Counted from the stretch's first letter, positions 15,954-28,479 are shown. The stretch: 64,000 nucleotides of DNA from Leisingera sp. NJS204 (GCF_004123675.1 NZ_CP035417.1:196501-260500), one strand, 5' to 3'. Notes: generated by a model from the sequence alone, not told the origin. Translations and numbers: made by a program.

Positions 15954-17159
15954 ATGCCAAAGGCGCAGCAGAAGGGATATGTTCTGGACACCCACCGGTT
16001 GTGCGATCCGGCGCAGACGCTGGCTGCAGTCCGGCCGCATCTTGCCGGTATGGGCATCACCCGCATTGCCAATCTGACCGGGCTGGACCGGATCGGCCTG
16101 CCAACCGTTATGGTGACGCGGCCTAATTCCCGTTCAGTCGCGGTGGCGCTGGGCAAGGGGCTGACGCTGGAAGCGGCACAGGCCTCGGGCGTGATGGAAG
16201 CGATTGAGACCTGGCACGCGGAACGGATCGCGCTGCCTCTGCGGGCGGCCAGCTATCACGACTTGCGGCAAGGCACATTGGTGGCGGATGTTGATCGTCT
16301 GCCCCGCGTGACCGGAGGCCGCTTTGATCCGCACCAGCCGATGTTGTGGATTGAAGGAACGGACCTGATAACTGAAAAGGCGCATTGGCTGCCCTATGAA
16401 ATGGTGGATACCGATTACACCGCGCGGCCCTGCGGCGGGCAGGGAGCGTTTCCGCGCACTACCAACGGTCTTGCGTCCGGCAACAGTCTCGCAGAAGCCA
16501 CCTGCCACGCGATTTGCGAATTGATTGAAAGGGATGCGATCACCCTGTGGCATCATGCACCGCCGGGCCCGCGTATCAATCCCGAAACTATAGACGACCC
16601 GCGCTGCCGTGCGGCGCTGGAACGGTTTGCTGCAGCAGGAGTGGACGCCGGCATCTGGAGTATCGCGACAGACACCGGGGTGGCGGCGTTTCATTGCATG
16701 ATTTGCGAAGCCGGCAGCCGGCCCGGCCATATCGGCATTGGCAGCGGCTGCCACCCGGACCGTGCCATTGCCCTGCTAAGGGCGCTGACCGAGGCGGCCC
16801 AGACACGGCTGACCTATATCTCCGGTGCGCGCGACGATCTGGATCCGGATGAGTTTACCCCCAAGGCGTCGGCAGAACGCGCGCAGTATGTCCGGGCGTT
16901 GTTGGCTCGAACCGAGCCGGTGGACCGGCTGCAAGATTGCCCGTCCTACTCAGCGCCGTCCTTTGAAAGTGACCTGGCCTGGCTCCTGAACCGGCTGGGG
17001 GATGCAGGGATAGAGCAAGTTCTGACGGTCGACTTGTCGCGTCCGGGTCTGGGAATTTCTGTGGTGCGTGCGGTGATCCCGGGCTTGGAGGCGCCGCATG
17101 ACGATCCGGATTTCATAGCAGGCCCGAGGGCCCTGAGAACAGCGGAGGCGCAGGTTTGA
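15954..17159 (+). CDS. YcaO-domain ATP-dependent cyclodehydratase/thioamidation enzyme
   Basis: The protein has 401 residues from the ATG at 15954, with GAGG about 10 bases upstream; an in-frame ATG at 15918 would add 12. YcaO hallmarks are visible: SGVMEAIETWHAE at 78-90, and TNGLASGNSLAEATCHAICE then LIERDA at about 170-195, which carry the Glu residues that bind ATP-magnesium. YcaO enzymes activate backbone amides with ATP; with a TfuA partner they install thioamides, while other YcaOs form azolines. The Pro-rich C-terminus of azoline-forming YcaOs is not seen, as is usual for TfuA-linked ones. The next gene encodes TfuA, and the start and stop overlap. Confidence 0.88.
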   Translation: MPKAQQKGYVLDTHRLCDPAQTLAAVRPHLAGMGITRIANLTGLDRIGLPTVMVTRPNSRSVAVALGKGLTLEAAQASGVMEAIETWHAERIALPLRAASYHDLRQGTLVADVDRLPRVTGGRFDPHQPMLWIEGTDLITEKAHWLPYEMVDTDYTARPCGGQGAFPRTTNGLASGNSLAEATCHAICELIERDAITLWHHAPPGPRINPETIDDPRCRAALERFAAAGVDAGIWSIATDTGVAAFHCMICEAGSRPGHIGIGSGCHPDRAIALLRALTEAAQTRLTYISGARDDLDPDEFTPKASAERAQYVRALLARTEPVDRLQDCPSYSAPSFESDLAWLLNRLGDAGIEQVLTVDLSRPGLGISVVRAVIPGLEAPHDDPDFIAGPRALRTAEAQV

Positions 17160-18520
17160 CGGCGGTTGTTTTTGCAGGCCCGACAATCAGCGCTGAGGAG
17201 GTCTTGAACCTGCTGAATGCCACTGTTCTGCCGCCGGCTGGTCAAGGCGACATTTACCGGGCCGCCCGTCAAGGTGCATCTGTCATCGGATTGATCGACG
17301 GGTACTTTGAAGGTGTGCCCTCGGTCTGGCACAAGGAAATCCTGTGGGCGCTGGAGCAGGGGATCGCGGTGTTCGGCAGCGCCAGCATGGGCGCGCTGCG
17401 GGCGGCTGAGCTGTCTGCGTTCGGGATGGTGGGCATCGGAGACATCTATGAAGCCTATGCTGCGGGTGAGATTTGCGACGATGACGAAGTCGCGGTCCTG
17501 CACAGCCCGGCAGAATTGGGCTTTGCACCGCTAAGCGAACCGATGGTCTCAATCCGGGTAACCGTGGCGCGCGCGGTCGCTGACGCGGCGCTGGAAGCGG
17601 ATCAGGCTGCGGAGCTGCTCAGAACGGCCAAGCAACTGTTTTACCACGACAGGACCTGGGAACAGATCCTTGCGGGACTTGCGGATGCATCCTGGCTTGG
17701 CAAATTTTCGGCCTGGCTTGAAACCGGGCGGGTGGACGCCAAGCGCGAGGACGCGCAGATGATGCTGATCCGTATGGCGGCCTTTCAGGAGACGGAGGGC
17801 AAGGCCGTTTCCATTCCGCCTGAAAAGGTTGAACGCTCGCTTGCCTGGCAGGGTTTGGTGCAGCGGATCGAAGCGGAGGCGTACAGCCTGCCGGACGCGG
17901 ACTTGCAGGTGCTGGATGAGTTGCGCCTGGAGCCTGGGCGCTTTGGTGAATTCCGGATCCGCGCTGCAGCGCGCTGTTTGGCGCTGGAGAATGCAAGGCG
18001 AAAGGGGCTGCGCCCGGACCGGCAAGAGATATTAGAGCAATTGAGCAGACACCGGGAAACGCTCCAGCTTTTCCGCAGTCGCGACCTGCAACAGTGGCTG
18101 GCAGAAAACGGGCTGACTGCTGACGGGTATGAAGCGCTGCTTGGGGAAACAGCGCTGGCTGGCACTGCTGTGAACACCTTGGGCAAGCAGTTGGAACTGC
18201 ACCTGCTGGCAGAGCTCCGGCAGGCAGGCGCCTATGCGCAATTGAAATCCCGGGCGATTTCCAAGTCGCAGCGGCTGGCTGAGCAGGACCAGCGGGGCAG
18301 CGATCAGCCTGAACAGGACCGGTTGCGCTGGGCCCTCTGGTATTTCGAAACACGCCTGCAGCGGGAAATCCCTGAAGATCTGGGTGAATATGCTGCGGGT
18401 ATCGGCCTGAGAGACCTGGATGAATTCTATGCGCTGATCCGGCGTGAATTCATGTATCATCAAAAGGGCAAAACACAGTCTGCACCGCAAAGCAGAGACC
18501 AGGCAGGGCATATACGGTGA
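17156..18520 (+). CDS. TfuA-like protein with long C-terminal extension
   Basis: The 454-residue protein begins at a TTG that overlaps the ycaO stop. The TfuA core occupies roughly residues 1-200 (VVFAGPTISAEEV, GLIDGYFEGVPSVWHKEILW, GIAVFGSASMGALRAAEL, IGDIYEAYAAGEICDDDEVA). TfuA delivers or releases sulfide for YcaO-dependent thioamidation in the McrA and thiovarsolin systems. The following ~250 residues are helical and unfamiliar, rich in Leu/Glu/Arg (LQLFRSRDLQQWLAENGLTA), longer than a minimal TfuA. The extension may hold substrate or partner contacts. Tight linkage to ycaO and the downstream zincin gene suggests one operon. Confidence 0.85.
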   Translation: MTAVVFAGPTISAEEVLNLLNATVLPPAGQGDIYRAARQGASVIGLIDGYFEGVPSVWHKEILWALEQGIAVFGSASMGALRAAELSAFGMVGIGDIYEAYAAGEICDDDEVAVLHSPAELGFAPLSEPMVSIRVTVARAVADAALEADQAAELLRTAKQLFYHDRTWEQILAGLADASWLGKFSAWLETGRVDAKREDAQMMLIRMAAFQETEGKAVSIPPEKVERSLAWQGLVQRIEAEAYSLPDADLQVLDELRLEPGRFGEFRIRAAARCLALENARRKGLRPDRQEILEQLSRHRETLQLFRSRDLQQWLAENGLTADGYEALLGETALAGTAVNTLGKQLELHLLAELRQAGAYAQLKSRAISKSQRLAEQDQRGSDQPEQDRLRWALWYFETRLQREIPEDLGEYAAGIGLRDLDEFYALIRREFMYHQKGKTQSAPQSRDQAGHIR

Positions 18521-18544
18521 AACCTCCGCAAATTTGGAGGGCTC

Positions 18545-19843
18545 ATGGACGACATGTTTGAGATGGCTGAAGAAGCGCCGGGAACCCGGTTTCTCCTGTT
18601 TCCGCAATCTCCGTTCCGGACTGCGGATCCGGAACCGGAACTGGTCGAGATTTCCGCGCCGCCCGGTTCTATCGGGCCGGGGCCGTCGGGACCGCGGATG
18701 TATACAGTCAACCCTTTGGGCAAAACCATTCCGTTTGGGGCCATAGTCCCTGGCCCGTCGGGGCCTGGCATGTATCTGCCGCCTTGGCATGGAGAGGTAC
18801 AGGAACCGCCGGCGCCGGATGAAGATGGCCACTTTACGCATGTCCTGCCTTCGGACCCCGGTTTTGAGGCGGTGCATTTGTTTGCGGCCGCCCATTTCAC
18901 GCTGGATGTGTGGGAGGCGTATTTCGGGCACCCGATCCCCTGGCATTTTGCGCGGGATTATGACCGGCTGGAGCTGTCGCTGCTGCCAAGCCTGGACAAC
19001 GCGCATATCGGCTGGGGATTTCTGGAAACCGGCGGCACCTGGGAGCATGGCGGCGAATACCGCGCCTACAGCCTGAATTTTGATGTGGTCGCCCACGAAA
19101 TCGGCCATGCCATCATCTACAGTGTTGCGGGCATGCCGGTCTCGGATGATGTGCCGGGCGAGTATTTTGGATTTCACGAATCTGCAGCTGATATGGTGGC
19201 GCTGATAGCCTCGCTTCACTTCGGGTCGGTTGTCGAGGAGCTGTTGGAGAACACCAAGGGCAATCTTTACACGTTCAATCAGTTGAACCGCTTCGCCGAG
19301 CTTGCCGGGAATGCGCAAATCCGGATGGCGGCAAACACCCGGTCGCTGCAGGAGTTTGTTTCCGGCTGGAGCAGTGAACACGCGCTGTCCGAACCGTTGA
19401 CGGGGGCGATGTTCGATATCCTCGTCGATATCTTTCACGAGCGGCTGCTGGTGCATGGTCTGATCACACCTGAAATGGAGGATCTGTCTGATCAGTTGGA
19501 GGAAACCCCCTATTACAGCGATGTCATGCAGGCGCTGTTTGATGCGCGCTATGCTCTTGATCCCGAAGGGTTCCGGGTATCGCTATTGGAAGCCCGTGAC
19601 TTTCTGGGCGCCTATCTGGCGGCGGCGTGGAGCATGCTGGATGCCGAAAACCTCACCTATGCGGCAGTGGAGAAGGCGTTGCTGATTGTTGACCAGGAAA
19701 CAACCGGAGGCGCCTTCCACTCGATCATAGAAGGCAACTTCCGCATGCGGGGAATTGGCTTTGCCCAGGCTGGACCGCGACTGGCCGAAGCGGATGAGGA
19801 CAGCCATGCCAATTCCGTGCGGACACGGGTGCCCGGCGGCTGA
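18545..19843 (+). CDS. Putative zinc metallopeptidase (gluzincin type) of the ycaO-tfuA cluster
   Basis: The 432-residue protein has HEIGH at 184-188 and a downstream Glu in FHESAAD (Glu212), the zinc-ligand spacing of thermolysin-like gluzincins. The usual secretion signal is absent, so it is probably cytosolic. The N-terminal ~95 residues are Pro/Gly-rich and contain two near-copies of a motif, SIGPGPSGPRMY (42-53) and AIVPGPSGPGMY (66-77). The C-terminal half is helical without a known domain. It starts 24 bases after tfuA with GGAGGG upstream. A peptidase in a YcaO cluster could trim a modified substrate; this is inference. It is not a member of a RiPP protease family that I recognise. 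Confidence 0.7.
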   Translation: MDDMFEMAEEAPGTRFLLFPQSPFRTADPEPELVEISAPPGSIGPGPSGPRMYTVNPLGKTIPFGAIVPGPSGPGMYLPPWHGEVQEPPAPDEDGHFTHVLPSDPGFEAVHLFAAAHFTLDVWEAYFGHPIPWHFARDYDRLELSLLPSLDNAHIGWGFLETGGTWEHGGEYRAYSLNFDVVAHEIGHAIIYSVAGMPVSDDVPGEYFGFHESAADMVALIASLHFGSVVEELLENTKGNLYTFNQLNRFAELAGNAQIRMAANTRSLQEFVSGWSSEHALSEPLTGAMFDILVDIFHERLLVHGLITPEMEDLSDQLEETPYYSDVMQALFDARYALDPEGFRVSLLEARDFLGAYLAAAWSMLDAENLTYAAVEKALLIVDQETTGGAFHSIIEGNFRMRGIGFAQAGPRLAEADEDSHANSVRTRVPGG

Positions 19844-19991
19844 CAGGCTGATTGTCTACAAATTCTATTCTTTTTGTGCTATTTTACCTCTCAGGGGGAC
19901 ATTCAAGGCATCAGAACCTGCAGAAATTCCAGACCTGTCCTTTTTTGAATTGTCATCCTGAGTTGTTTCCATAGCCACAGGAGTGTGTACA

Positions 19992-20837
19992 GTGGCCGAG
20001 TCTTTGCTGAGTTTTTCTGAAGTGTTGTTATTTGGCCGTTTGATCGACGACATGAAAATTGTCCCCAAAATTGCGGGGGCTGTTGTTGGTACAGTTGGTA
20101 ATTTGCAGAAATTGGAAGGTACCAAAGTAAACGGCGAAACTGTTGCGGCTGGTGACAAAGTCCTGGTTATGGGCCAAAACAACAAGGGGGAGAATGGTCT
20201 CTATGAGGTTGGGTCGGGAAGCGAAAATCCTTGGATTCACCAGCGCCAGTTTCCTAAAGGAACCCTACTAGAGATTGCTCACGGTCCCCGCCAAGGTTTA
20301 TGGCGTCAGGTCGGCGACTATGGCGCTGGGCAGCAGGACTATGAAAAGGCAGGAAAGCGGCGGCAGAAAGGCCAGGGCAGAAACAACCTGCTTGGCGATC
20401 AGCTGAGCGATGATGCGAATCTCGCCCGTATCTACGGGTTTTCCTATGAGGGCACCTATTTTGAACTGCCGGAACCGGTGATATTCCTTGTGCATGGTGA
20501 CGGCGAAAGTGCGACGGGTCAACAATCGCCCGCCGGCCAGGTTCAAGTTTCCCGGGCACCTTTGGACCCTTCGGTGACCGGGGTTGCCTCGGCCGAGTAC
20601 CAGATCGCAAATGACATCCGGGTTTGGGATTATGACAAGGCCGATTACACGATCCGGATGGACGTGATGACCGGCATGCTGGAACAAGTTCTTTTGGATG
20701 TCTTTTTCGGCGACGGCGGACCTTCAGTCAGCGGTGCCAAGGTGAGCGGCGCGAAAGTTAGCGGCGCGAAGGTCAGTGGAGCCAAAGTCAGCGGTGCCAA
20801 GGTCAGCGGCGCAAAAGCACGCGGGTCCGGCGACTGA
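19992..20837 (+). CDS. Unknown protein with tail-fibre-like domain and C-terminal VSGAK repeats
   Basis: The 281-residue frame starts at the GTG at 19992, about 10 bases after AGGAG; a GTG at 19983 is too close to that site. An N-terminal segment MAESLLSFSEVLLFGRLIDD is amphipathic. Residues about 35-110 resemble the small domain found in phage tail fibres and adhesins (KVNGETVAAGDKVLVMGQ, NGLYEVGSG). The last ~40 residues are six perfect VSGAK units followed by ARGSGD. The repeats could be a pentapeptide-type solenoid or a repeated core for modification by the YcaO/TfuA pair. No Cys is present. It lies 148 bases after the zincin gene on the same strand. Confidence 0.6.
   Translation: MAESLLSFSEVLLFGRLIDDMKIVPKIAGAVVGTVGNLQKLEGTKVNGETVAAGDKVLVMGQNNKGENGLYEVGSGSENPWIHQRQFPKGTLLEIAHGPRQGLWRQVGDYGAGQQDYEKAGKRRQKGQGRNNLLGDQLSDDANLARIYGFSYEGTYFELPEPVIFLVHGDGESATGQQSPAGQVQVSRAPLDPSVTGVASAEYQIANDIRVWDYDKADYTIRMDVMTGMLEQVLLDVFFGDGGPSVSGAKVSGAKVSGAKVSGAKVSGAKVSGAKARGSGD
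20727..20816 (+). repeat. Six tandem 15-bp units encoding VSGAK
   Basis: Six in-frame 15-base units each encode Val-Ser-Gly-Ala-Lys. Synonymous positions vary between units (AGC/AGT, GGT/GGC/GGA, GCC/GCG/GCA, AAG/AAA, GTC/GTG/GTT) while the peptide does not, which suggests selection on the protein sequence rather than recent DNA slippage. Confidence 0.9.
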
Positions 20838-20911: not shown

Positions 20912-22684
20912 TTAGAAACCTGCTTTCTTCAGGCCTTCAACAAAGTGCTGGGTGTCTTCTTCCAGCCGGTCAGGCTGCACCTTGGTCCAGCGTTCCAGTG
21001 AAAAATTCGGATGTGCTTCGCGGTGCCGGGCGGCCATATCCCGGGCCAGTTCCATCTTGCCCATCTGCGCATAGCTGGCGGCCAGCATCCGCTGTCCCTC
21101 GGTCGGGTTATTCATTTTGGTGAGCGTTTCAATAACCGCCTCATAGTGTTTGAGGTTATAGTAGGCGCCACCCAGGTGCCAGAGGTATTGATCGGGGAAA
21201 TAGGGGTTCAGCCGCATCGCCTGTTGCAGGTTTTCGATGGCTGTTTCATTGTCACCGGAATGGGCCAGCGCATCGGCGTAGTCCGACAGAAGGTCGGCAT
21301 CATTCGGGTTAAGCGCAAGGGCGCGCCGGTAAGCGCCGATCGCTGCGTCATGCTCTTTCCGGTAAAGATGTACAAATCCCAACTCACCGAAACCGCGGGC
21401 ATCGGTCGGGTCCAGCTCAACTGCTTTCTGGGCGTAAGACAGGGCTGTGTCCAATGCGTGTTCGGCGTCTTTGGCCCAGGAATAGCGCCAATCAATGTTC
21501 AGGGTGCGTGATAGTGCGGCCGAGGCCCGGGCATAATCCTGATCCCGCGCAAGGGCGCGTTCGTACAGGGTCTGGGCTTCGCGGTTATCCTGCCTGGTGT
21601 AGCGGAAGATAAATTGCTGCCCGCGCAGAACAAAGCCATAGGCTGCAAGATCTGCCGGTGCTGCCTGCGCCATCCGTTTGCGCTCCTGGGCTTCGATCAG
21701 AACGGCCGTTGCTGCAACGATTGCATCGGTTACCTCGTCCTGGATGGCAAAAATATCGTCAATGTTCCGGTCATAGCGCTCGCCCCAGATCGTCCGCCCC
21801 GAATCCGCGTCAATCAGTTCAATGGCGATCCGTACCCTTGCTCCGGCCCGGCGGACGCTGCCGCGTGCGACGTAGCGTACCCCTAACTCACGTGCGGCTT
21901 CCTGTGGGGGCATCGAACGGGTCTTGAAGAAAAAGGCAGAATTGCGCGCTATGACAAAGAGATTTTTGAATTTGGACAGGTTCAGGATGATGTCTTCTGT
22001 CAGCCCGTCCGCAAACCAGTTGTCGGATTGGTCGCCGCTCAAGCTGGCAAATGGCAGCACGGCGACGGATGGTATGCCAGGGGGCGGGCGGCCTGCGGGC
22101 TGAGCCTCCGGAGGGCGCCGGGTGGCAGCCATGGCCGCTCCGGCGACCTCGCTGCGGACACAATAGGAGGGCACCGGGTCCGCAATATTCTTAAGGCGCT
22201 GCGGGCCAAGAAATTCAAAACCGAAGCGCAAGCGGTTGCGGATCTGTTCATAAACCGACCCGCTGACAAAAACCCGGCCCGGTTCGGCAATTTCCTGCAG
22301 CCGGGCGGCAATGTTGACATTGTCGCCGTGAATGCCGCGGTCATCGACCAGGATTTCGCCCATATGCACACCGGCCCGAAACCGAAGCTGCTGGTCTTCT
22401 GGCCGTGCACTGTTGTTCTGCTCTGCAATGCGGTGCAGTTCGACACCGAATTTCACCGCGTTGGTCGCTGTTTCAAACAACGCTAGAACCCCGTCGCCGC
22501 GAACTGCAACCACTTGACCGTCATGCGCATTGCATGCTGTTTCCAGTTCTTCCAGCAGGGATTTCAGTGCGCTGTATGTGTCGATTTCGTCATTGCCCAT
22601 AAGCCGGGCATAGCCGACAACATCGGCAAACAGCACTGCTCCAAGCTGGCGCCGGACCGTTGTTTTTTTACTATGGCCGCTCAC
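20912..22684 (-). CDS. Class III adenylate/guanylate cyclase with TolB-like and TPR regions
   Basis: The 590-residue protein starts at the GTG at 22684, after AGGAGGAGGACAGCTT; a longer ATG start is less likely. The catalytic domain (about 10-180) has the metal Asp in AVLFADVVGYARLMG and the second metal Asp region (VAVRGDGVLALFE), then VHMGEILVDD and NVNIAARLQEIAEPG. A TolB-like N-domain segment follows (SVAVLPFASLSGD, GLTEDIILNLSKFKNLFVIAR), then TPR units (YAQKAVELDPTDARGFGELG, YRRALALNPNDADLLSDYAD). It makes a cyclic nucleotide, probably cAMP. The gene converges with the repeat-protein gene. Confidence 0.9.
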   Translation of the reverse strand: MSGHSKKTTVRRQLGAVLFADVVGYARLMGNDEIDTYSALKSLLEELETACNAHDGQVVAVRGDGVLALFETATNAVKFGVELHRIAEQNNSARPEDQQLRFRAGVHMGEILVDDRGIHGDNVNIAARLQEIAEPGRVFVSGSVYEQIRNRLRFGFEFLGPQRLKNIADPVPSYCVRSEVAGAAMAATRRPPEAQPAGRPPPGIPSVAVLPFASLSGDQSDNWFADGLTEDIILNLSKFKNLFVIARNSAFFFKTRSMPPQEAARELGVRYVARGSVRRAGARVRIAIELIDADSGRTIWGERYDRNIDDIFAIQDEVTDAIVAATAVLIEAQERKRMAQAAPADLAAYGFVLRGQQFIFRYTRQDNREAQTLYERALARDQDYARASAALSRTLNIDWRYSWAKDAEHALDTALSYAQKAVELDPTDARGFGELGFVHLYRKEHDAAIGAYRRALALNPNDADLLSDYADALAHSGDNETAIENLQQAMRLNPYFPDQYLWHLGGAYYNLKHYEAVIETLTKMNNPTEGQRMLAASYAQMGKMELARDMAARHREAHPNFSLERWTKVQPDRLEEDTQHFVEGLKKAGF

Positions 22685-22755
22685 AAGCTGTCCTCCTCCT
22701 GTGAGTGTCGGCAAGAACTGCCGGAGAAGCCGGTTCTGCCCTTTTGGTCTGCCGG

Positions 22756-23406
22756 TCAGCCTGCTGGCGGATCTGCCGGGCCCGGCGGCCAGGCCCAGCC
22801 TGTAATCTCCGCGCCGTGGAAGCCTGCCTTCACACTGGCGTCAAGTTCCTGCGCGAGAACCCTGCGGCTGGCCTCCCATTCCTCCCTGAGGAGGCCTACT
22901 GTGATCATGTCGAAGTACCGGCCTTCTGCATACCAGGCTGCTCGCATCCTGCCTTCGGTTGCGAAGCCTGCGCGCGTGGTGAGTTCCTCGCTGCGGGTAT
23001 TGTCGGCACGGTAATATGATGTAATGCGATTTAGCCCGATCTGACGGAATGCAAAGTCGAGAAGCAGCGCAAGCGACCGGATCCCGATGCCCTGCCGGCG
23101 CTTGGACTGCTCAATGAAAAGCGCAATAATGGCGTCCCGGTTGACCATGGAGATGCTTTCCAGCCCGGCAATGCCGCACAGTGCATTGGTATTTGTAACA
23201 ATTGCAAACCAGCACTTGCTGGTATCCGGCGCAGTACCGGCAGGGGGGATCCAGGCCTGTGCAATGGCAGGCAGGCTGAGGGGGGACCGGGCAGCGCGGT
23301 CAAAGCAGGCCAGGTCGGTCACATTCTGAAACCAGCCGGCCATAGTGGCGAGGTCTTCCGCTTCCAGCGGCCTGAGCTGTAACTCTGCGGACTGCCGGTC
23401 CGGCAT
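22756..23406 (-). CDS. GNAT family N-acetyltransferase (RimJ/RimL type)
   Basis: The 216-residue protein starts at the ATG at 23406, 8 bases after AAGGGGAC; an upstream in-frame ATG at 23493 has no such site. It shows the GNAT core: LQLRPLEAEDLATMAGWFQN at the start, CGIAGLESISMVNRDAIIAL, the acetyl-CoA loop QSKRRQGIGIRSLALLLDFA and the RimL-like C-terminal strand (NTRSEELTTRAGFATEGRMR). Substrate may be an amino terminus or small amine. It lies upstream of the cyclase gene on the same strand, 72 bases away. Confidence 0.82.
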   Translation of the reverse strand: MPDRQSAELQLRPLEAEDLATMAGWFQNVTDLACFDRAARSPLSLPAIAQAWIPPAGTAPDTSKCWFAIVTNTNALCGIAGLESISMVNRDAIIALFIEQSKRRQGIGIRSLALLLDFAFRQIGLNRITSYYRADNTRSEELTTRAGFATEGRMRAAWYAEGRYFDMITVGLLREEWEASRRVLAQELDASVKAGFHGAEITGWAWPPGPADPPAG

Positions 23407-23688
23407 TTTCTGTCCCCTTATTCCGTTTCTAAGTGTTGCCTCCCCTAGCTCAGGGGCGGTGGCGAGATCGTCAGCTTTGGCCTTATACCACATTTAGCCG
23501 GGCTGTGGTTGCAGAAGCTGGCAGTGCTCAACCGGCCTGTGCACTTTGGCGGGAAAGGCAGGCAAGGTTAGCGTCCGAGTCCGTGGTGTAATTTCCGCGC
23601 CTTCAACGGTGTGATCCTGGGTTGCCATCGAGGTGTATGGTCGAGGTGGAGTTTCGACGCTTCAGCCACGATCCGCACGGAGACCCCG

Positions 23689-24302
23689 ATGACCAAGACC
23701 AACATGGACCTTTCCGAGCTTCTCGCAAAGCAAAATGGCGGCGGCTTTCTGCGTGCCGTCGCGGAGGCAGTTTTACAGCTGATCATGGAGGCCGACGTGG
23801 AAGGCCTGATCGGTGCCGGCAAGCATGAGCGGGCCGATCATCGCACGACCTGGCGAAATAGCCGTCGCCGCAAACACCGATGGACGTCGCGAACTCATTG
23901 GTCCGGGGCTTGGTCCGTCAGAAGCCGGGACTTTCTGGACGGGCTTCTTGCGCGGCTTGAAAGCCCGGGGGCTGGAACGGCACCAAGCTGGTGTTCAGCG
24001 ACGCGCACAGCGGCCTCAGGGCGGCCATCGTGCTGGCCAACATGGCGTTCCCGCGCCAGCACAGAACGAAGTTGCACAGTACCAATCCGATCGAGCGCTT
24101 GAACAAGGAGGTGAAGCGCCGGGCCGATGCCGCCGGTATCTTCCCGAATGAGGCCTCCATCACCTGCCTGATCGGCGCCGTGCTGTTCGAACAGAACGGC
24201 GAATGGCAGACCGCCAGCCGCTACATGATGGTTGAGGCCTTCGCCGAAACCGGCGCAGAGGAGACAGACCCCATTCTCAGCCTTTCAACACAAGCCGCCT
24301 GA
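23689..24302 (+). pseudogene. IS256 family transposase relic
   Basis: The start (MTKTNMDLSELLAKQNGGGF, then AVAEAVLQLIMEADVEGLIG) and the end (NPIERLNKEVKRRADAAGIF, ITCLIGAVLFEQNGEWQTAS) match IS256-type transposases. The middle is mostly deleted and the frame shifts at about 23850 and again near 23990, so about half of the usual ~400 residues remain. It is inactive and lies just outside the tRNA-Arg gene. Confidence 0.85.
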
Positions 24303-24426
24303 TCATGACCTCAGGCCATCCGGGAAATCACACCAGCTTGACGGACGTGAACCAGGCAAGAAATACGTGCATTGATCTCTTTAGGGGTTGCGACTCTCCA
24401 GCGCTATGATTACACCCCGCGGCAGT

Positions 24427-24503
24427 GGACCGATAGCTCAGCTGGATAGAGTACTTGACTACGAATCAAGGGGTCGGGGGTTCGAATCCTCCTCGGTCCG
24501 CCA
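24427..24503 (+). tRNA. tRNA-Arg (anticodon ACG)
   Basis: The 77-base gene folds as a cloverleaf: acceptor GGACCGA/TCGGTCC, D arm GCTCAGCTGGATAGAGT, anticodon stem CTTGA/TCAAG around CTACGAA (anticodon ACG), T arm GGGGG-TTCGAAT-CCTCC, and an encoded CCA end. It stands at the left border of an accessory region and may have served as an integration site. Confidence 0.95.
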
Positions 24504-25018
24504 TTATACCCTTTGTCAGGCGACACATAGTTCTGCCTTTTGCGACAGAACATTGCCTTTGCGCCGCGTAGTGTTGCCTTCGGCCCTGTGATGACGCTGA
24601 TCATATTTCCCTCTTTCAAAACTGGTTTTGAGCGAAGCCCTTCAGGGCGCTCGTCTCTAAAACCTGCTCCCGGCGAGGGTTCGGGATAGCAAATGCAATA
24701 CAATTCGATGGTGTTGGTGCGGCCCGCAAGCGTCGGCCGAGGACACGGCCATGTCTAATTGTATTGTAGGCGCGTGGGGATGATGTCCCCTAGCTCTTCT
24801 ATTGGGTAGTTCGGGCGGAAAGCGGTCTTTCTCTGCGCATGCAATCTGCTGAGTCATCAAGTTAAGTAGGAGACGTTCAGCATTGAGCCGGGCTTAACCT
24901 TGCTGAGTGAAGGTTGCGGGATTGTCTCGGTGGTGGTGGCAGCACCTTCACGCCGCAAATGCGCCGCGTGTTGGGGGCACGGTAGGCAGGCTGGGGATCG
25001 TCGCGGAGAAGATGTTGC
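24504..25018. other. Non-coding stretch with degraded mobile-element DNA
   Basis: No gene is supported here. The first 90 bases after the tRNA contain repeated TTGCCTT-like words and a GTTCTG/CAGAAC inverted repeat, possibly terminal sequence of a lost insertion element. From about 24960 the sequence begins to resemble the 5' part of an IS66 tnpA gene, with a frame change before 25019. Confidence 0.4.
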
Positions 25019-25360
25019 GTGGGCCGCAGAGCTTGGATGCAGGCTCGGGTGGCCGGCGTTTCGGTAGCACAGGTTGCGCGGCCATACGCGATGAATGCCA
25101 ACCTGATCCACAATTGGCTACTCAATCCGCGCTTTGCGTCCGAAGAGACTGGCGACGAGATCGAGGGGACGACTTTCCTCCCGGTGGAAGTTGAAGGGGC
25201 GTTATCCACGCCAAGCCAGCCGCCTTTAGCACCCGCGCCCGACGCTCTGCTGTCTGTGCAACGTGTGGACATTACACTCTCAGATGGCCGCCGCATTCTG
25301 GTTAAAGGCACCACGGCTTTGTCAGCAGTGTCCGCGCTAGTCGAAGGGGTGATGCGTTGA
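25019..25360 (+). pseudogene. IS66 family accessory protein TnpA, degraded
   Basis: The 113-residue frame resembles IS66 TnpA (also called OrfA): VAGVSVAQVARPYAMNANLI then HNWLL, followed by FLPVEVEGAL and the conserved C-terminal ITLSDGRRILVKGTTALSA. The N-terminal part is in another frame upstream, so it is broken. The next bases (about 25360-25378) read like the start of TnpB (IPVNTR) and then decay; TnpB and the transposase TnpC are missing. Confidence 0.7.
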
Positions 25361-25490
25361 TTCCTGTAAACACCCGACATATACAGCAAGATCCAGACAA
25401 CGAAGTGTCGGGAAGAGGTGCCGCAACGTATACGACCACATGCTTTACAGCTAGAATCGCAAACGTATGGGGCAGTAAAGAGATAAGAAG

Positions 25491-26867
25491 ATGAAAAATC
25501 AGAAAGTTACGGCATCCAAATACACGACTGGCGAACTTTTCTGTGGTGCAGGCGGGTTGTCTCGTGGCTTCAAAGCCCTGGGCTGTACTCCAAGTTTTGC
25601 CAACGATATCTGGCCCGTGGCCCTTCATACTTTCATGATGAACTTCGATCCTCTTTACGCTGAGACGAATGGGGACAGAAGCAGGATACTAGCCCTACCT
25701 CAGTCAGTCGAAGACATATCGATCGACGAAATACTGGAGAATGCGCGGAGCAACTCAGATGCTCCTCTCACGCCAGGTGCATTGGACATTCTACTTGGAG
25801 GGCCTCCTTGCCAAGGCTACTCACTGAACTCTCACATTCGTTCAGCTGAGGATCCGAGGAACTTTCTTTTCCGGCATTATGTGAGACTTCTACGCGGACT
25901 TTCGCCAAAGGTTTTCGTCCTTGAGAATGTCCCTGGGATGTTCTCACTCGAGGGCGGACGTTTCTTTGACGAACTCATCGCCAAAATATCGAAGCCGACC
26001 GCTGCGTGCGTCGGGTATGACATCGACTTTAAAATACTCAACGCCGCGCACTACGGTGTTCCACAGGACCGTTTTCGTGTTGTGGTGATAGGCACGAGAC
26101 GAGATGTTTCAGCCCAAGTAGGGAAAGCAACGGTTCCCACGCCTCGCCACTATTCATTAGCGCAAGCTCATTTTAAGGGTGGCCGTGACCACACCTTCCA
26201 CTACGCGATTGGCTACCGGAAGCGCCTTGAAAGATGTGACTTCGATCAAACTGACCCAGCACTTCTTCCACCCATTTCGGTCCGAGAAGCAATTGGAGAC
26301 TTGCCACCCTTGACCAATGGTGGAGGGCAAGATCGAACAGTCTACTCAGCAGCGCAATCCCCCGCGTCTCATTTTCAGAAGAAGATGCGCCTTAAAGCCG
26401 ACGTTCTTACCAATCACTGGTGCAGAGCATTGGCACACCCAAACACAGAACGTATCAAACACATTCCGGCAGGGGGCGATTGGCGATCGATCCCAAAAGA
26501 ACTGTTGCCCCCAGGGATGCGAAGAGCGAAGCGAAAAGACCATACTAAGCGGTACGGTCGACTATTACCGGATGAAATCTCCGGCACACTACTAACCAAA
26601 CCGGACCCGCATTGGGGAACGTTCATTCACTATGATGAAAACCAGCAGAGGTTGATCTCTGTTCGGGAGGCTGCGCGTATCCAATCGTTCCCAGATTGCC
26701 ATGTTTTCTTTGGAGGGCAAGTCGATCAGTATAAACTTTGCGGGAACGCGGTGCCTCCAATGATGGCTCAAGCTATTGCCGAAAAGGTTTCACAAGTACT
26801 TGATCTCTATTATTCAACCACAGAAACATTCAACTCAAATTCAACACTGGAATTAGACAGGGCTTAA
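25491..26867 (+). CDS. DNA (cytosine-5) methyltransferase
   Basis: The 458-residue enzyme has all major 5-methylcytosine methyltransferase motifs: I (TGELFCGAGGLSRGFKALGC), IV with catalytic Cys107 (GGPPCQGYS), VI (VFVLENVPGM), VIII (QDRFRVVVIGTR), and X (GNAVPPMMAQAIAEKVSQVL). It transfers a methyl group from S-adenosylmethionine to C5 of cytosine at an unknown target. The base composition is more AT-rich than the flanking chromosome, a sign of transfer. It heads a tight three-gene run: the next gene starts 1 base after its stop. No restriction endonuclease family is seen next to it. Confidence 0.93.
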   Translation: MKNQKVTASKYTTGELFCGAGGLSRGFKALGCTPSFANDIWPVALHTFMMNFDPLYAETNGDRSRILALPQSVEDISIDEILENARSNSDAPLTPGALDILLGGPPCQGYSLNSHIRSAEDPRNFLFRHYVRLLRGLSPKVFVLENVPGMFSLEGGRFFDELIAKISKPTAACVGYDIDFKILNAAHYGVPQDRFRVVVIGTRRDVSAQVGKATVPTPRHYSLAQAHFKGGRDHTFHYAIGYRKRLERCDFDQTDPALLPPISVREAIGDLPPLTNGGGQDRTVYSAAQSPASHFQKKMRLKADVLTNHWCRALAHPNTERIKHIPAGGDWRSIPKELLPPGMRRAKRKDHTKRYGRLLPDEISGTLLTKPDPHWGTFIHYDENQQRLISVREAARIQSFPDCHVFFGGQVDQYKLCGNAVPPMMAQAIAEKVSQVLDLYYSTTETFNSNSTLELDRA

Positions 26868-26868
26868 T

Positions 26869-28479
26869 ATGGCGAAGGATTCTGCTCTTCAACAGCGCTT
26901 GGTGGATATTTCAAAAAATTCCAGCAAAATAACAATTGAACGACTAACTACTTCTGAAGTGAATGAAAGGACTGGCTTATCACTGGGGCGTAGCCCTAAC
27001 CCCATTTATAAGTTCAGCTTTGAAGAAGATGGCGTGCAAATTGAGGCTATTGCGTTCACTCTGATTCTCAACGGCGCTGGCCGCCCAGCAACACGAGCTG
27101 AGGCATTAGGGCAAGCTATCGCTTCAAATGGTGAAAATCTATTCCAGTTCAATCCATTTCTTTTAGTATTCGACTACTCAGCAAGTCGTTTTCTTTCGGT
27201 CTCCGCGGCAAAACTATTTGGCGCGTTCTCGAGAGAGTCGTCGGACAGGGAAATACCTTTTTCCGACAGCGCATCGTTTTCTTTAACACCCAGTTTTGAA
27301 CATCAGACAATCAATATGTACACGACTGTCAGCAGCGATGACCTCTGGTCGTGCAACAATCTGGAAGACCTAAGCTCAGAAGAAATCCAACACAACATTC
27401 TGAGGTTCCAAGGGGAAGCGCAGACAGAAAATCTTTCCAACATTGTCGCGGCTGCTTCAGAAAGGTTGGATGCTAACGCCGCGAGGCTCAATACCGACGA
27501 AATCTTGAACCACTCCCAAGATCGCCTATCCTACACTGCTAGCCTTGTTACGCAGGGCAGGCACAGGTTCTACAGCTTGACGATCCCGTCCGAAACGCTT
27601 GCAGACTGTTCGTTTGTAGTAACCCGAAACGAGGATCGAGACCAAGGGTTTCAACGCTATCTGAGCAAGGATCGAGCAACTGAAATCGCAACATACTTAG
27701 ATTCTGGTCTAGGAACCATTCCAACTTCAATAATCGTGTCCGCACAGGAAGAGTGTGCGTTCAAGTACGACGGGAAGAAGAGAACTGTATCATTCGACAA
27801 GATAGACAAGGCATTCCTAATATTAGATGGTCAGCATAGAGTGTATGGTTTCAAGCTTGCAAAAAACACCATGCGCGTTCCCGTAGTTATTTACAATGGC
27901 CTCAGCAGAAGCGAAGAGGCTCAGCTATTTATTGATATCAATACCAAACAAAAACCTGTACCTTCCGAATTGCTTTTGGATATTAAAAAATTGTCTAAAA
28001 CGCAGGGGGATGATGAAAAAAGGATAAGTACAGTATTCGATCTTTTCGATAGCGAGCCTGGAAGCTCACTGCTTGGAAAATTATCCCCTCATGAAAAGAA
28101 GAATGGCCTCATCTCGAGAGTTACCTTCAACGCAGCACTCAAGCCACTCATTGATTTCTTCGGTGAGGCGAGCCCAGAGGTAATTTACGCGACCCTAAAT
28201 CCATATTATGATGGAGTTCAATCGGCATTTTCGGCGATATCTCGAGACATTGACTTTTTCTCGCCGATGACATTTCGCGGGATGACACTTGTTTTCCCAG
28301 AAATCCGAGAAAAGGTCATGTACAAAAGCGAAGGGGACCTTAACAAGCGCATCTACCACAATTTCCTAGTTGATGCACTTTCAGGGCAAAAACTGGCACC
28401 TCTGAAGGGTCGTCAAAGATCCTATACTGGCATTGTTACCCTAATAACAGAAGCATTGAAGCCAAAGAGATTGTTTTAA
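26869..28479 (+). CDS. DGQHR-domain protein
   Basis: The 536-residue protein has the signature DGQHR at 320-324 in KAFLILDGQHRVYGFKLA, followed by VPVVIYNGLSRSEEAQLFID and INTKQKPVPSELLLDI. DGQHR proteins include DndB, the regulator of DNA phosphorothioation, and relatives in defence loci; the family is thought to bind or act on DNA but its chemistry is unclear. The first ~250 residues and last ~100 have no recognised domain. It follows the methyltransferase by one base and precedes the next gene by 10 bases. Codon use is AT-leaning like its neighbours. Confidence 0.85.
   Translation: MAKDSALQQRLVDISKNSSKITIERLTTSEVNERTGLSLGRSPNPIYKFSFEEDGVQIEAIAFTLILNGAGRPATRAEALGQAIASNGENLFQFNPFLLVFDYSASRFLSVSAAKLFGAFSRESSDREIPFSDSASFSLTPSFEHQTINMYTTVSSDDLWSCNNLEDLSSEEIQHNILRFQGEAQTENLSNIVAAASERLDANAARLNTDEILNHSQDRLSYTASLVTQGRHRFYSLTIPSETLADCSFVVTRNEDRDQGFQRYLSKDRATEIATYLDSGLGTIPTSIIVSAQEECAFKYDGKKRTVSFDKIDKAFLILDGQHRVYGFKLAKNTMRVPVVIYNGLSRSEEAQLFIDINTKQKPVPSELLLDIKKLSKTQGDDEKRISTVFDLFDSEPGSSLLGKLSPHEKKNGLISRVTFNAALKPLIDFFGEASPEVIYATLNPYYDGVQSAFSAISRDIDFFSPMTFRGMTLVFPEIREKVMYKSEGDLNKRIYHNFLVDALSGQKLAPLKGRQRSYTGIVTLITEALKPKRLF

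Follow-up and report, generated by a model that had tools for sequence, protein, structure and literature searches.

A conserved alphaproteobacterial locus joining YcaO and TfuA with a cytosolic zincin and a repeat protein as candidate thioamidation substrate

YcaO-TfuA loci are widespread in Proteobacteria, and the substrates of most of them are unknown. One such locus lies within a 64,000-nucleotide stretch of the chromosome of Leisingera sp. NJS204 (NZ_CP035417.1:196501-260500; hereafter the window, from the start of which all coordinates are counted), where genes for YcaO, TfuA, a gluzincin and a protein with six VSGAK repeats at its end stand consecutively, all on the plus strand. The question raised by this locus is which protein or peptide the enzyme pair modifies. 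An earlier reading of the same DNA, referred to below as the original prediction, had proposed that a larger protein, perhaps the repeat protein or the Pro/Gly-rich N-terminus of the zincin, is the substrate and that the peptidase trims it. We propose a YcaO-TfuA thioamide-forming system with the repeat protein as substrate, the tail of which would be thioamidated and cut into short peptides, and we give this proposal about an even chance of being correct.

The four genes form a set that is kept in many alphaproteobacteria from marine and soil habitats. A scan of genome contigs yielded 80 loci spanning Leisingera, Ruegeria, Roseovarius, Roseobacter, Roseibium, Hoeflea, Nitratireductor, Aurantimonas, Neomegalonema and others, and the order ycaO-tfuA-zincin-repeat protein was found in about 88 of the 96 related alphaproteobacterial loci over which gene order was counted, the exceptions being mostly contig ends or rearrangements. 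Orthologues of the zincin, the repeat protein and a nucleotide cyclase encoded next to the block were each present in 20 of the 21 genus genomes, the same single genome being without all three. Among 296 genomes of the family, eight gave a strong zincin match, and in all eight TfuA adjoined and a homologue of the repeat-protein domain followed the zincin; five other family genomes carried TfuA without the zincin, in differing gene settings. The repeat and cyclase genes of four Leisingera loci lie about 20 kb off on the opposite strand, apparently moved together by inversion. The set named in the original prediction is thus real (Pfam matches for YcaO and TfuA, zincin motifs and six perfect VSGAK units, encoded in a row) and recurs in this order, and it was right that no transporter, dehydrogenase or McrA gene adjoins the block in the window; it had overlooked conserved genes for the cyclase and a GNAT acetyltransferase. 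A conserved separate precursor gene beside ycaO-tfuA, the second observation that, besides a lack of ordered co-occurrence, it had named as fatal to a larger substrate, was not detected in a comparison of small open reading frames (ORFs) across the loci. Candidate clusters of small ORFs near ycaO were rejected, since they read the cyclase or gene starts on the antisense strand or out of frame.

Both enzymes of the pair are present in one copy each in the genome of the window. The YcaO gene (15954-17159) encodes a thioamide-type protein of 401 amino acids that matched PF02624 (E=1e-83) and aligned with MJ1094 (PDB 6pe3, E=2e-39) through the segments GKG...MEAIE and TNGLASGN...ELIERDA, with the ATP-site motifs intact. 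The tfuA gene (17156-18520) encodes 454 amino acids matching PF07812 (E=2e-47), of which residues 3-204 aligned with PDB 6xp8 (E=1e-33); its orthologues are either about 252-276 or 430-480 amino acids long, the C-terminal extension seen in the window copy being present in part of the family only. The genes are adjacent and the domains intact, the arrangement by which YcaO-TfuA backbone thioamidation is recognized. Judged by sequence, the closest curated relatives of both proteins are those of archaeal McrA-glycine thioamidation, though below the cut-offs: the best NCBIfam match of YcaO was TIGR03266 (235 bits, cut-off 365), and TfuA scored 207 bits against NF033432 (cut-off 235). Against NF040716, the uL16-type YcaO family, the window YcaO scored 24 bits with a cut-off of 700.

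Evidence on the substrate comes from the repeat protein (19992-20837), a proposed precursor of 281 amino acids with no Pfam family for the window copy. Its start is most likely the GTG at 19992, with AGGAG 8 nucleotides upstream, and orthologues begin with MAES or MSES. Its conserved start (M-S/A-E-S-L-L-S-F-S-E-V-L-L-F-G-R) is followed first by a hypervariable insert, then by a conserved domain and finally by the repeat tail. In the window the tail carries six perfect VSGAK units of five amino acids (20727-20816), the proposed cores, encoded by five distinct DNA versions with zero amino-acid differences. Among 75 arrays of 5-10 units, the units were VSGAK (279), VSGAR (161), ISGAK (20), VSGSR (18) and minor forms, and within-array difference was 0.066 per residue, with 0.049 at codon position 2 and 0.63 at codon position 3. 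Since the units are nearly identical as protein despite near-saturated synonymous sites, the comparison indicates that they are old copies held identical by long-maintained selection, and that fresh duplication is not the cause. The choice of K or R was uniform within the array in 70 of the 75 cases, and the zincin tree implies about 10 switches between the two.

A hidden Markov model of the conserved domain alone detected distant homologues, well separated from shuffled controls, with the tail units DLVGRS (L183), VMASRA (L181, the weakest match) and MNVG (L182). The domain is therefore kept while the sequence and length of the units (four, five or six residues) change between lineages. A conserved N-terminal part followed by a variable or repeated C-terminal core is found in the multicore precursors of ribosomally synthesized and post-translationally modified peptides (RiPPs), and the repeat protein shows this arrangement with an N-terminal part of protein size. 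The tail pattern supports, as far as comparison of sequences can, a multicore precursor whose recognition part is unusually large, and it is on the side of the repeat protein that the larger-substrate idea of the original prediction has held.

The insert (20064-20366, borders approximate) ranges from 0 to 110 residues across orthologues and is missing or replaced between close species. This diversifying, phage-virion-like part of a putative precursor resembles a head-decoration or tail-fibre module, matching PHROG 2647 (head decoration) with E=2e-4 in the window and 3e-7 in L103.

The third gene (18545-19843) encodes a gluzincin with HEIGH at residues 184-188 and E212. The motifs HEIGH...FHESAAD of the window copy appear as HExGH and FHESA[AS]D in 78 of 80 orthologues. 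Its AlphaFold2 model (mean predicted local distance difference test, pLDDT, 82.6) has the M36/thermolysin fold, superposing on the Aspergillus M36 protease 4k90 with Z 25.4 over 308 residues at 3.2 A and on thermolysin with Z about 21; N152-A153 and H279, by our own reading of the motifs, presumably take the places of N112-A113 and H231 of thermolysin. The protein starts MDDMFEMAEEAPGTRF, without a hydrophobic leader, and neither signal peptide nor propeptide was found. Searches of Pfam and NCBIfam gave no family at cut-off, and a sequence search of PDB gave no match. The window zincin shares with the M36 fungalysins and M4 thermolysins the fold and the HExxH+E site, and differs from these secreted enzymes in its cytosolic location, in the lack of signal peptide and propeptide and in matching no curated sequence family. 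Based on the fold, the intact active-site motifs and the absence of signal peptide and propeptide, it is probably an active cytosolic peptidase. In the model the fold starts near residue 13, placing the Pro/Gly-rich N-terminus inside the confidently folded domain; this segment is not a tail, and the suggestion that it is the modified substrate was rejected.

From the gene set, the folds and motifs of the enzymes, the selection that acts on the units and the recurrence of the cyclase, we infer a pathway of thioamidation, cleavage and, with less confidence, sensing. YcaO-TfuA would recognize the repeat protein by its conserved domain and exchange O for S in backbone amides of the units at the C-terminus; in V-S-G-A-K, the Gly is a plausible site. 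The cytosolic M36-like zincin would then cut the tail once modified, probably on the N-terminal side of the hydrophobic residue in each unit, freeing thioamidated peptides of 4-6 residues. Thermolysin-type enzymes favour a hydrophobic residue at P1', and all unit types offer one. GNAT may acetylate the released peptides, and the thioamide would protect the peptide pieces, as suggested for thiovarsolin (PMC6511847).

The candidate for sensing is a class III nucleotide cyclase with C-terminal TPR (20912-22714, minus strand; PF00211 and TPR), convergent to the repeat gene and adjoined by the GNAT gene (22756-23493, minus strand; PF13302), a neighbour kept across genera. The cyclase-TPR gene is present at 67 of the 80 loci, with AAA and SAM domains added in several lineages; in the Leisingera-Roseobacter-Rhizobiales clade it lies downstream and is convergent, and in other lineages it opens the block. 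The genome of the window carries ten such cyclase genes in 5.04 Mb, for which chance would place one within 8 kb at about 3% of places. A CRP-type regulator of the kind that binds cyclic nucleotide monophosphates adjoins three of the cyclases of the block; in L049 (3324-7091), L050 (11917-15809) and L051 (3602-7372), a regulator of this type is divergent to a cyclase-AAA gene that opens the ycaO operon. A study of graspetides also mentions adenylate cyclases near ATP-grasp/YcaO/TfuA loci (PMC8939145). We tentatively regard the cyclase as a dedicated partner, the TPR of which may bind the peptide or the tail to give a cyclic-nucleotide signal, much as in RRNPP-like signalling a TPR binds a peptide encoded by the neighbouring gene; taken on its own, we treat this role as a lead that is well below even odds. 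Within Ruegeria, two residues in the TPR of the cyclase, 527 (V versus A/S) and 543 (M/V/I versus L), divide K from R repeats without exception, and synonymous differences are not raised there; no perfect column arose in 2000 label shuffles, and no perfectly separating column was found in YcaO, TfuA, the zincin, GNAT or the core domain. The covariation is not significant on the tree, which holds one to three independent switches only, too few to make it more than a lead, and this counts against the proposed pathway. A fuller scheme, in which thioamidated, protease-resistant peptides of 4-6 residues, diced by the M36-like zincin, are recognized by the TPR of the cognate cyclase as a Gram-negative peptide-to-cyclic-nucleotide signal with the K and R unit variants as specificity types, is speculative, and we think it unlikely.

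Several further observations tell against the proposed pathway. No exporter gene is adjacent to the block. Orthologues of the candidate precursor are 160-310 amino acids long, unlike the short precursor genes typical of RiPP clusters, and the precursor domain of 150-280 amino acids is far above the usual leader size. The VMASRA unit has no Gly. One clade (L049-L051, L180 and L192-L195) has no repeats and instead a single conserved C-terminal stretch, for example PGKRSPTMYASRMMMGHRGGRL, and L141 and L179 have neither repeats nor a single conserved tail; given these cases, repeats are not essential to the system. The domain homologue without repeats in L141 (3970-7683) ends in LQSHYSGKFTRAKKGGRHNNWSD, with two cyclase genes around it.

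Three other explanations have to be weighed. The tail could be a working part of the mature protein, either a short pentapeptide-repeat structure or a basic binding tail, with thioamidation altering its stability or binding and the zincin regulating or maturing another part. The longer VSGAR arrays exceed the Pfam cut-off for PF00805 (E down to 2e-7, in the register A-K/R-V-S-G), the family of beta-helices built from tandem A(N/D)LXX units, phmmer matched designed pentapeptide solenoids, and the tail is uniformly basic in most species. The units of four and six residues in homologues, however, do not fit one pentapeptide helix, and helices of this sort do not usually have units so close to identical. 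In the model the window tail is disordered (pLDDT about 40 or less), though a model of such low confidence is compatible with a fold. A PDB fold search with the repeat-protein model, itself weak (pLDDT 68), gave no credible match. We hold a working tail to be possible, at well below even chances.

The remaining two explanations place the substrate elsewhere. If the zincin itself were recognized by its structure and thioamidated, the modification might tune its active site in the manner of the McrA thioglycine or the uL16 thioamide, the repeat protein then being a substrate or an anchor of the zincin. YcaO enzymes that act on folded proteins exist (PMC5589413, PMC13063428), and within the genus none of the other three proteins is as well conserved as the zincin (81-98% identity, compared with 55-89% for TfuA), which has many invariant glycines among its orthologues. 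Such conservation is expected of an active peptidase anyway, no feature marks a modification site in the zincin, and the selection on the repeat units and their turnover would be left unexplained, so that we consider this explanation improbable. More improbable still is an unlinked protein or peptide as substrate, with the neighbouring genes sharing regulation only. The precedent is E. coli YcaO, which acts on an unlinked ribosomal protein (PMC13063428); against it, the four genes are kept together across many genera and lost together, and no small ORFs are conserved at the locus.

Other arrangements of ycaO and tfuA were noticed in the survey. In L157 (5992-10915), which has no zincin, a methyltransferase gene follows the pair, and a gene for a berberine-bridge-type FAD oxidase lies divergent to it. 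L160 (9162-11765) contains an 867-residue ORF with a TfuA N-terminus and a YcaO-like C-terminus, an apparent fusion, behind a gene resembling a radical-SAM/SPASM protein. In two family genomes, L158 (8669-11337) and L161 (7651-10300), ycaO-tfuA adjoins a small ORF of 88 and 72 amino acids, ending in HEHGNEKGRIIALGL and HDKNNHVVAMGL, respectively; both also carry a class III cyclase with AAA, one with a SAM domain too, and look like conventional-precursor cousins with a like cyclase. Around the block in the window, torT-torS-torR was rejected as part of the system, as it adjoins ycaO in Leisingera only. The stretch at 23611-28479 contains a transposase-like fragment, tRNA-Arg (24427), a gene like those of DNA cytosine methyltransferases and a DGQHR-motif protein; the last two lie in DNA of lower G+C content (about 46-48%), and this may be an island at the tRNA.

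The locus, present in Leisingera, Ruegeria, Roseovarius, Roseobacter and several Hyphomicrobiales, provides a candidate substrate that is concrete and simple in genetic terms, and it brings its own protease. Should both the peptides and their link to the cyclase prove real, a backbone-thioamide signal would be coupled to a second messenger, a role that has not been proposed for thioamides in the literature searched.

The nearest known parallel is the thiovarsolin cluster (var) of Streptomyces varsoviensis, in which a YcaO-TfuA pair and a repeated-core precursor give very short linear thioamidated peptides (PMC6511847). The thiovarsolins are N-acetylated, and at the present locus a GNAT gene adjoins the cyclase. 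The var cluster has a small precursor, heme-oxygenase-like, ATP-grasp and amidinotransferase enzymes and an MFS transporter, and no protease (PMC6511847), whereas the present locus has a protein-sized candidate precursor, a dedicated zincin and a cyclase, with none of those three enzyme genes in the gene content of the window. With McrA-glycine thioamidation in methanogens (PMC5589413) the locus shares the nearest curated families of both enzymes and, under the present proposal, a substrate of protein size, and it differs in being bacterial, in its sub-cut-off scores, in the absence of mcrA beside the genes and in the added zincin and repeat protein. The action of E. coli YcaO on uL16 (PMC13063428) likewise concerns a protein, but involves no TfuA partner and an unlinked substrate. 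Genome mining of alphaproteobacterial TfuA-YcaO pairs has covered Proteobacteria including Ruegeria (PMC8120280); the main text of that study deals with Nif11-like and other small precursors and mentions neither a zincin, a cyclase nor a repeat protein. In agreement with the original prediction, which did not recognize the combination, no report joining YcaO/TfuA with a zincin and a repeat protein was found in a search that lay outside supplements and most subscription journals. The enzymes are of known kinds; what is new, within the literature searched, is that a candidate multicore precursor of protein size occurs together with a dedicated M36-like protease of the cytosol and with a nucleotide cyclase that recurs across the loci.

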